This document shows positions 23,587 to 35,894 of a stretch of DNA of 64,000 nucleotides, one piece after another. The position numbers were made by a program, and so were the translations under genes. The notes under the pieces were generated by a model. It ran no database searches. It worked only from the letters and a program-made list of their open reading frames with translations, and was not told the origin of the DNA. The stretch is from Salinivirga cyanobacteriivorans (lineage in GTDB: Bacteria > Bacteroidota > Bacteroidia > Bacteroidales > Salinivirgaceae): positions 2,785,501-2,849,500 of the forward strand of contig NZ_CP013118.1 in NCBI RefSeq assembly GCF_001443605.1. Reading direction: 5' to 3'. Every line of letters begins with the position of its first letter. Within the stretch, counting starts at the first letter, position 1.

Positions 23587-23891
23587 TTATTTTGAATGCA
23601 TTGTAAGTGCAGGAAATATAAACTAGATATTATGAACCGAGCCATGATCCGCCGGCTGGCGGAACACAAACCCGCATGATTATAATAAAACTGAAAAGCT
23701 TATTTGGCGGGAATTTGATTCATCATGGCGAGCTCCATCCCGATTGCATCGGGACAGGTAATGACAGTTAAAATTAAAATTATAAATAGATGAAACAAGC
23801 ATGATTAAAATAATTTATTAAACACACACGCAGGAATGATTATTTTACATCATGCGGTTCCATATGACCTTTGAAAATTAAAAATAAACAT
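23587..23891. other. Intergenic gap with short palindromes
   Basis: No gene is seen in about 300 bases. There are two small hairpins: TCCGCC-GGCT-GGCGGA at 23648-23663 and TCCCGATTGCATCGGGA at 23738-23754. The second recurs with one change at 35576-35592. The yidD gene often found between rnpA and an S41 protease is absent, and no remnant of its cysteine motif is readable. Confidence 0.6.
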
Positions 23892-35352: not shown

Positions 35353-35560
35353 ATATAGGAGCTAAAATTGTTCGTTACATTATAAATGTGAACTCCACCT
35401 TACCATTAAACCAAATGGTAAGTAACTCCAAAATAAATTGTTAATAAAAACATTTTAGCAGCCAATTCCTTCCAATTATCCTCCCAAAATTATTGTTCAT
35501 TTGTTTGTATAATTAAAAAGGCCTTACAAAACGAATCTTGTAAGGCTATGATTTTCAACA
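35353..35560. other. Intergenic region downstream of the MarR gene
   Basis: It contains a 9-bp perfect hairpin at 35399-35422 (CTTACCATT / AATGGTAAG, 6-base loop) not followed by T, and the outermost terminator of the tRNA array at 35521-35546. No gene is seen. Confidence 0.5.
35521..35546 (-). terminator. Terminator 3 of the tRNA array
   Basis: GCCTTACAA and TTGTAAGGC form a 9-bp stem; the minus strand continues CTTTTTAATT. It follows the outermost tRNA 3'-end remnant. Confidence 0.7.
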
Positions 35561-35574
35561 GGGCCCACCCGGGC
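35561..35574 (-). pseudogene. tRNA 3'-end remnant, outer copy
   Basis: Fourteen bases (GGGCCCACCCGGGC on plus) match the acceptor and T-stem end of the intact tRNA at 35821-35894. The rest of the gene is gone; a palindrome TCCCGATTTCATCGGGA at 35576-35592 abuts it. Confidence 0.65.
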
Positions 35575-35575
35575 T

Positions 35576-35592
35576 TCCCGATTTCATCGGGA
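35576..35592. repeat. Short palindrome TCCCGAT-N3-ATCGGGA
   Basis: A 7-bp perfect stem with a 3-base loop, identical to that at 23738-23754 except for one loop base. It interrupts a decayed tRNA copy here and stands in the rnpA downstream gap there, so it looks like a dispersed small hairpin. Confidence 0.6.
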
Positions 35593-35626
35593 TAAACTTC
35601 TCGCCCGAGTTTTGCAAATAAAAAAA

Positions 35627-35651
35627 AGGAGACACTTTTCAGTATCTCCTT
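35627..35651 (-). terminator. Terminator 2 of the tRNA array
   Basis: AAGGAGA pairs with TCTCCTT with a few further pairs; on the minus strand it runs into a long T tract. It follows the middle tRNA remnant. Confidence 0.7.
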
Positions 35652-35658
35652 CCAATTG

Positions 35659-35779
35659 TGGGCCCACCCGGGCTCGAATCCCGTAAACCTAAAAACCTAT
35701 GGTTTTTATATAGGTTTACGCGGATGCACGTAAAACGAAGAAATCGCAGATTTCTGGTTTTACGGCACCAGGGACCACC
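35659..35779 (-). pseudogene. Decayed tRNA copy with an 89-bp palindromic insertion
   Basis: 35659-35678 equals the 3' end and T-arm of the intact tRNA, and 35768-35779 (CCAGGGACCACC) equals the next stretch of it. Between them, at 35679-35767, lies an insertion made of two hairpins: CGTAAACC at 35682-35689 with GGTTTACG at 35713-35720, and CGTAAAAC at 35729-35736 with GTTTTACG at 35757-35764. The 5' half of the tRNA is missing. The copy cannot fold as a tRNA. Confidence 0.75.
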
Positions 35780-35789
35780 GGGCATAAAA

Positions 35790-35819
35790 AAAGGCCGTCA
35801 AAATTAATTGACGACCTTT
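35790..35819 (-). terminator. Terminator 1, directly after the intact tRNA
   Basis: The stem AAAGGCCGTCAA pairs with TTGACGACCTTT (one wobble pair) and the minus strand continues with T7. It begins 2 bases beyond the mature tRNA end. Confidence 0.8.
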
Positions 35820-35820
35820 G

Positions 35821-35894
35821 TGGGCCCACCCGGGCTCGAACCAGGGACCACCTGATTATGAGTCAGGTGCTCTAACCAACTGAGCTATAGGCCC
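35821..35894 (-). tRNA. tRNA with CAT anticodon (Met elongator or Ile2)
   Basis: A complete 74-base cloverleaf on the minus strand: acceptor GGGCCTA, D-arm with AGCTCAGTTGGTTAGAGC, anticodon stem CCTGA/TCAGG with loop CTCATAA, T-arm GGTTCGAGCC, discriminator A. The anticodon is CAT. The 3' CCA is not encoded. Sequence alone cannot separate elongator methionine from the lysidine-modified isoleucine tRNA; it is not an initiator, because the first pair is a G-C match. Confidence 0.93.

Follow-up and report, generated by a model that had tools for sequence, protein, structure and literature searches.

A split and displaced tRNA(CAT) locus in Salinivirga cyanobacteriivorans as a likely gene-less member of a tRNA-gene-targeted element family with a dedicated GIY-YIG nuclease

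Results

One intact tRNA gene and two broken 3' ends

The window analysed here is a stretch of 64,000 nucleotides from the S. cyanobacteriivorans genome, which consists of one contig of 4.81 Mb and has Salinivirgaceae MAGs as its nearest named relatives. ARAGORN and Rfam call a single tRNA in the window, with anticodon CAT, and exact string matching, by which the positions of all parts were fixed, places two remnants of its 3' half and three differing terminators beside it (Table 1), an arrangement that the preliminary description had given and that proved exact to the base. We presume that this tRNA is tRNA-Ile2 (CAU, lysidine-modified) rather than tRNA-Met, because the two other CAT tRNAs of the genome look like the initiator and elongator Met species. 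The first remnant is split in its T-loop by an 89-bp insert that folds as two adjacent hairpins, and the outer remnant abuts the palindrome TCCCGATGAAATCGGGA, so that on both points, and in reading the locus as palindrome insertion into a tRNA, the preliminary description was borne out. A second copy of this palindrome lies at 23738-23754 as had been stated, giving two occurrences in the window against 0.12 expected by chance; the second copy, of the class TCCCGATnnnATCGGGA, has no tRNA adjoining it. Broken copies of tRNA-Val, tRNA-Asn, and tRNA-Pro(TGG) also have a palindrome of this class where the anticodon stem would be. There is no nuclease ORF at the window locus, and plasmid records queried with the tRNA region returned ordinary tRNA matches only. 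An intron in the tRNA gene was considered and rejected, as the Rfam scan of the window gives tRNA only, with no match to a group I or II intron covariance model.

Table 1. Parts of the tRNA(CAT) locus, in window coordinates
Feature	Position	Strand	Evidence
Intact tRNA, anticodon CAT, probably tRNA-Ile2	35820..35894	-	ARAGORN and Rfam RF00005, 70 bits
Terminator A (termA); read as having arrived with the first (older) inserted unit	35786..35818	-	Exact string matching; common to BM715 (L012) and GH44 (L013)
Remnant 1, 5' part, equal to tRNA nt 42-53 (GGTGGTCCCTGG)	35768..35779	-	Direct repeat of 35841-35852
Double-hairpin insert of 89 bp in the T-loop of remnant 1, between G53 and T54	35679..35767	-	Fold z = -6.6; covariation with 17 homologous inserts; covariance-model match 75.5 bits
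Remnant 1, 3' part, equal to tRNA nt 54-75 plus trailer	35652..35678	-	23-nt identity to 35818-35840
Terminator B (termB), not in L012; read as having arrived with the second (younger) inserted unit	35620..35653	-	Exact string matching; alignment
Palindrome TCCCGATGAAATCGGGA in place of the start of the remnant 2 T-loop	35576..35592	-	Exact string matching; palindromes of this class also occur in broken copies of tRNA-Val, -Pro(TGG), and -Asn
Remnant 2, native 3' end of the original tRNA gene	35559..35575	-	Exact string matching; homologous to the L012 3' end, which the same terminator follows
Terminator C (termC), native terminator of the tRNA gene	35515..35546	-	35511-35575 is 83% identical to L012:1075-1139, directly 3' of the L012 remnant

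The order of terminators in a congener identifies added units

The congener BM715 has the intact tRNA, terminator A, and the T-loop-split remnant in common with the window, and in the alignment its remnant 1 runs directly into a homologue of terminator C, with terminator B absent. Terminator C is therefore the native one, and the other 3' ends with their terminators are later insertions; the middle block of the window, made up of a 3' end, terminator B, and the palindrome, is, on this alignment, an added unit. The differing terminators had been taken to suggest that three former genes stood here, which the BM715 order contradicts; no such genes are needed, because a tRNA end and a terminator come with every added unit. 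The same order bears on the main reading of the preliminary description, in which a tRNA gene was duplicated in tandem, the copies decayed passively, and palindromes were inserted by chance into dead copies; the descent of terminators and flanks from full-length genes was not found, and for this and the further reasons given below we regard that reading as unlikely. In GH44, the other congener compared, the first remnant is reduced to a stub, and BM715 additionally has an upstream 5' half whose D-loop is split by another two-hairpin insert. The window locus is best seen as an old, gene-less, partly decayed product of at least two T-loop insertions, of which the terminator B unit is the younger.

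Other tRNA genes also differ among the three congeners. An ORF-bearing unit at tRNA-Phe in BM715 is empty in the other two, and two upstream units at tRNA-Ala are found in BM715 alone, while the arrays at tRNA-Asn and initiator tRNA-Met occur in the host genome and have empty counterparts in BM715. Others recur in one congener each: the upstream units of Ile and Gly, and the T-loop units of Asp and of the window locus. Filled and empty alleles occurring together with units in common indicate that the elements are both inherited and turning over.

Partial tRNA copies recur across the host genome

Thirteen of the 44 tRNA genes in the host genome lie within 700 bp of a partial self-copy, compared with 1 of 330 non-cognate (mismatched) pairs and with none of the 38 tRNAs of a control genome that lacks GIY-YIG candidates. 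The decaying array of the window does not stand alone: a dozen further tRNA genes show this layout, as do related species. The upstream pieces mostly stop at nt 15-20, in the D-loop. Downstream pieces are either broken at the T-loop, after about nt 53, or have TCCCGAT..ATCGGGA in place of the anticodon stem. Such breaks at fixed loop positions in unrelated tRNAs argue against duplication and passive decay, to which two other features would be congenial: the Val copies upstream of the intact gene retain most of the tRNA together with its leader, and near 908700 of the host contig the Pro(cgg) units form a near-perfect tandem repeat. The 172-bp unit of that repeat (L102) consists of the tRNA-Pro(cgg) 3' part, a terminator, and a T-loop insert of a second type (GGTTGTGAACCGACGA..), its copies being almost identical.

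Integrases classically use tRNA loops and 3' ends as their sites, and genomic islands restore the tRNA with a 3' part that they carry. The remnants could accordingly be attachment-site scars left by departed tyrosine-recombinase islands, which likewise insert into the loops or 3' ends of tRNA genes, restore the tRNA, and displace a partial copy; integration and excision had also been offered in the preliminary description as a second explanation. In its usual, integrase-based form we consider this explanation very unlikely. A PF00589 search found no tyrosine recombinase at any remnant-bearing tRNA, all 25 matches lying elsewhere in the genome, and the enzyme that does occur at such tRNAs is a GIY-YIG nuclease. 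The units, at 0.1-0.5 kb (100-500 bp), are too small for an integrase, and they include upstream units with a 5' half and a break in the D-loop, which are unusual for integrases. A relative also has the split remnant of the window, and the opposite pattern, in which relatives are free of remnants and an integrase stands beside remnants, was not seen. Most of the 25 recombinase matches fall within a 200-kb region of the host contig (109000-303000), where proteins of about 310 and 288 aa form pairs that recur.

The T-loop and D-loop inserts share a covarying double hairpin

All 20 inserts examined, from three species, fold as two adjacent end-to-end hairpins, the fold being scored with RNA parameters. 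In an alignment of 18 inserts 23 of the 31 pairs show compensatory changes and 96.9% of cells pair; none of 500 shuffles reaches the observed covariation, and sliding the partner destroys the signal. That every insert has this one defined, covarying architecture is a further argument against chance palindromes in decaying duplicates. A covariance-model search for the insert finds the double hairpin in the host genome with E below 1e-10 at tRNA loci only, in D- and T-loops, with one weak match (E 0.002) away from them. None was found in the units of other families, and the double hairpin therefore belongs to the version of the element in the Salinivirga-like genus.

Two inverted, bulged hairpins recall the pairs of REP/BIME sequences, and with four Y1 transposase matches in the genome it can be asked whether palindromes of this type were spread by Y1 (RAYT) transposases with a preference for tRNA loops. 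Hairpins set in the loops of structured RNA genes are likewise known from rRNA intervening sequences. The present double hairpin differs from both in being confined to tRNA loops rather than dispersed, and in having no linked Y1 transposase, as none lies near any of the four matches. Spread by RAYT transposases would also leave unexplained the duplicated tRNA halves with their terminators and the nuclease lineages that are each tied to one tRNA, and we give it slightly less credence still than the integrase scars. Palindromes alone had been entertained as a full explanation, which was abandoned once the nuclease ORFs appeared.

A GIY-YIG nuclease accompanies intact and broken tRNA copies

In the Leu(TAA), initiator-Met, and Val(TAC) arrays of the host genome the unit holds a short GIY-YIG ORF adjoining the terminator, with Pfam GIY-YIG E values of 1e-17 (Val), 7e-15 (initiator-Met), and, more weakly, 0.004 (Leu), where the nuclease copies are broken by a stop. 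An order-wide search with the Val protein recovered the same layout at Val, Asn, Met, Thr, Pro, Phe, and Arg genes and at the tRNA type of the window; in one genome (G047, L164) the window's tRNA type is followed by the ORF and then by a remnant whose T-loop is replaced by the palindrome TTCCGATGGCCATCGGAA. The upstream (D-loop) units of the Salinivirga-like genus are without a nuclease gene, and Arg and Pro upstream units elsewhere have one. No Met-type nuclease was found in plasmid records. The catalytic Y, Y-G, R, and E residues are kept in 39-40 of 40 related proteins.

In order to avoid the bias of the Val query, 110 nuclease loci of about 3 kb each were drawn from a phylum-wide Pfam search. 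A tRNA is present at 30 of them, where about 3 would be expected by chance (an estimate from about 35 tRNA clusters per genome), and 27 hold an intact tRNA together with a cognate remnant; the ORF lies on the tRNA strand in every tRNA-linked case. The preliminary description was right to suggest mobile elements, and the enzyme at such loci, here and across the phylum, is a nuclease; a lineage- and strand-matched ORF beside intact and broken copies is not accounted for by duplication and decay. The other 80 nucleases have no tRNA nearby, and the nuclease family therefore has other contexts. An Rfam scan of 40 further nuclease loci found no other recurrent target and one RNase P RNA neighbour, a single case (L283, 950-1672, on G114:C16) in which the GIY-YIG ORF lies about 20 bp upstream of the RNase P RNA gene on the same strand.

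Three further GIY-YIG loci of the host genome were recorded. Near 1581000 of the contig (L150, 576-1700) a tmRNA gene is followed by an ORF for a four-helix-bundle (S23-like) protein and a GIY-YIG ORF amid short repeats, and elements of this kind may target tmRNA as well. At L140 and L141 (both 1440-1760) GIY-YIG ORFs lie between inverted repeats CACCCTGT..ACAGGGTG away from tRNA genes, that of L141 apparently within a Y1 transposase-like ORF.

On a tree of 40 tRNA-linked nucleases tRNA identity changes 22 times, against a mean of 31.4 when identities are shuffled (0 of 200 shuffles as low). The Leu (98/82), Met (100/99), and Lys (100/98) nucleases form single clades, the support values being rough since the bootstrap had not fully settled, and those of Leu and Met each contain nucleases from different host families. 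If each nuclease recognises the gene of its own tRNA, grouping by tRNA would be expected, and these clades lend indirect support, from phylogeny, to the idea that the nucleases would cut the element-free site. The same specificity, together with the covarying structure of the insert, could also be taken to mean that the GIY-YIG protein acts on the tRNA itself, as a toxin or regulator, with the remnants serving as decoys or guides. To this we assign the least credence of the readings considered here: characterised GIY-YIG enzymes are mainly DNA nucleases, transcription of the downstream remnants, situated as they are beyond terminators, is probably low, and filled and empty alleles fit insertion into DNA.

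Discussion

We think it likely that the window locus belongs, as a partly decayed member without genes, to a family of small elements in Bacteroidota that target tRNA genes by means of a dedicated, homing-type GIY-YIG nuclease. In the mechanism that we propose as the simplest account, which is homing, a nuclease of about 80-120 aa would cut one tRNA gene in a loop, after nt 53 (T-loop) or after nt 15 or 19 (D-loop) in the Salinivirga-like genus, and often in the anticodon arm in other families. The break would be repaired from an element-bearing copy, with the element supplying a substitute tRNA half, namely a 3' half with its own terminator in downstream units and a 5' half in upstream units. 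The tRNA would be restored at once and the original half displaced as a remnant, the cut site of which would be occupied by a palindrome or double hairpin. The restored tRNA would retain the site, and further units could be added beside it to build tandem arrays; nuclease genes would subsequently be lost, with gene-less units persisting and decaying. The hairpins might prevent mispairing between a broken 5' half and the intact tRNA, the D-loop units being situated directly before the latter. The architecture, its recurrence, the filled and empty alleles, the presence and orientation of the nuclease, and the nuclease lineages specific to a tRNA are observed, and from them we infer the cutting, the copying by repair, and a role for the hairpins.

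The window locus itself has no ORF, and it is in the wider family that a homing-type endonuclease with an intact catalytic site is found, as judged from the Pfam GIY-YIG matches and the conserved residues. A replacement part carried by the element and a native part left as a remnant are seen at the 27 surveyed loci, in the filled and empty Phe alleles, and in the comparison of L012 with the window. One feature counts against homing of the usual kind: the break-point sequence is interrupted in the remnant and unchanged in the restored tRNA, and since the latter is uninterrupted, the customary immunity of a homing site would be either absent or dependent on other sequence. The carried halves match each local tRNA, and local copying or vertical descent is therefore needed, rather than free jumping between tRNAs. 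Also weighing against the proposal are the D-loop units of the genus, which have no nuclease gene, the 80 surveyed nucleases with no tRNA nearby, and the failure to find the double hairpin in the other families.

The closest comparators are the mORF elements of fungal mitochondria (Allomyces atp6; Glomus atp6, atp9, cox2, and nad3), in which an endonuclease gene is inserted, a replacement 3' end is carried, and the native end is left downstream, the endonuclease of the Glomus atp9 mORF being of the GIY-YIG type (PMC3630166). The tRNA elements have in common with these the endonuclease, the carried 3' end, and the native remnant downstream, but mORFs hit mitochondrial protein genes, whereas the present elements hit bacterial chromosomal tRNA genes and are set apart by their terminators, 5'-half units, palindromes, tandem arrays, and nucleases devoted to a single tRNA. 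A second comparator is the GIY-YIG enzyme SegB of phages T4 and T6, a free-standing homing endonuclease that stands beside tRNA genes and drives their spread (PMC13096335, PMC2988022); in T6 it cuts within tRNA genes and drives tandem amplification of a tRNA region (PMC13096335). Its reported motif, RAWTSGAAC, resembles a T-loop by our own observation. SegB differs in its place within phage tRNA clusters and in its association with many tRNA types, and it is not reported to carry replacement tRNA halves. No published account of bacterial GIY-YIG/tRNA elements was found in the open literature, subscription journals lying mostly outside the coverage of the search.

Somewhat more tentatively, we favour the view that these loci make up a phylum-wide class in which each GIY-YIG lineage is specialised on one tRNA, homes into its loops, and carries the half tRNA that keeps the host alive, to which the Salinivirga-like genus would add a conserved double hairpin with a function of its own, whether in site protection, in insulation of the broken half, or in recognition. 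Such an element would be a much smaller parasite than the integrases, with a nuclease of about 80-120 residues, that appears to use the same tRNA-gene niche. If correct, this would account for many small GIY-YIG genes and many tRNA fragments of the Bacteroidota, and it would provide a large natural collection of nucleases sorted by apparent tRNA target. It would also make testable in bacteria an old idea, that a selfish gene can survive within an essential gene by carrying the spare part.
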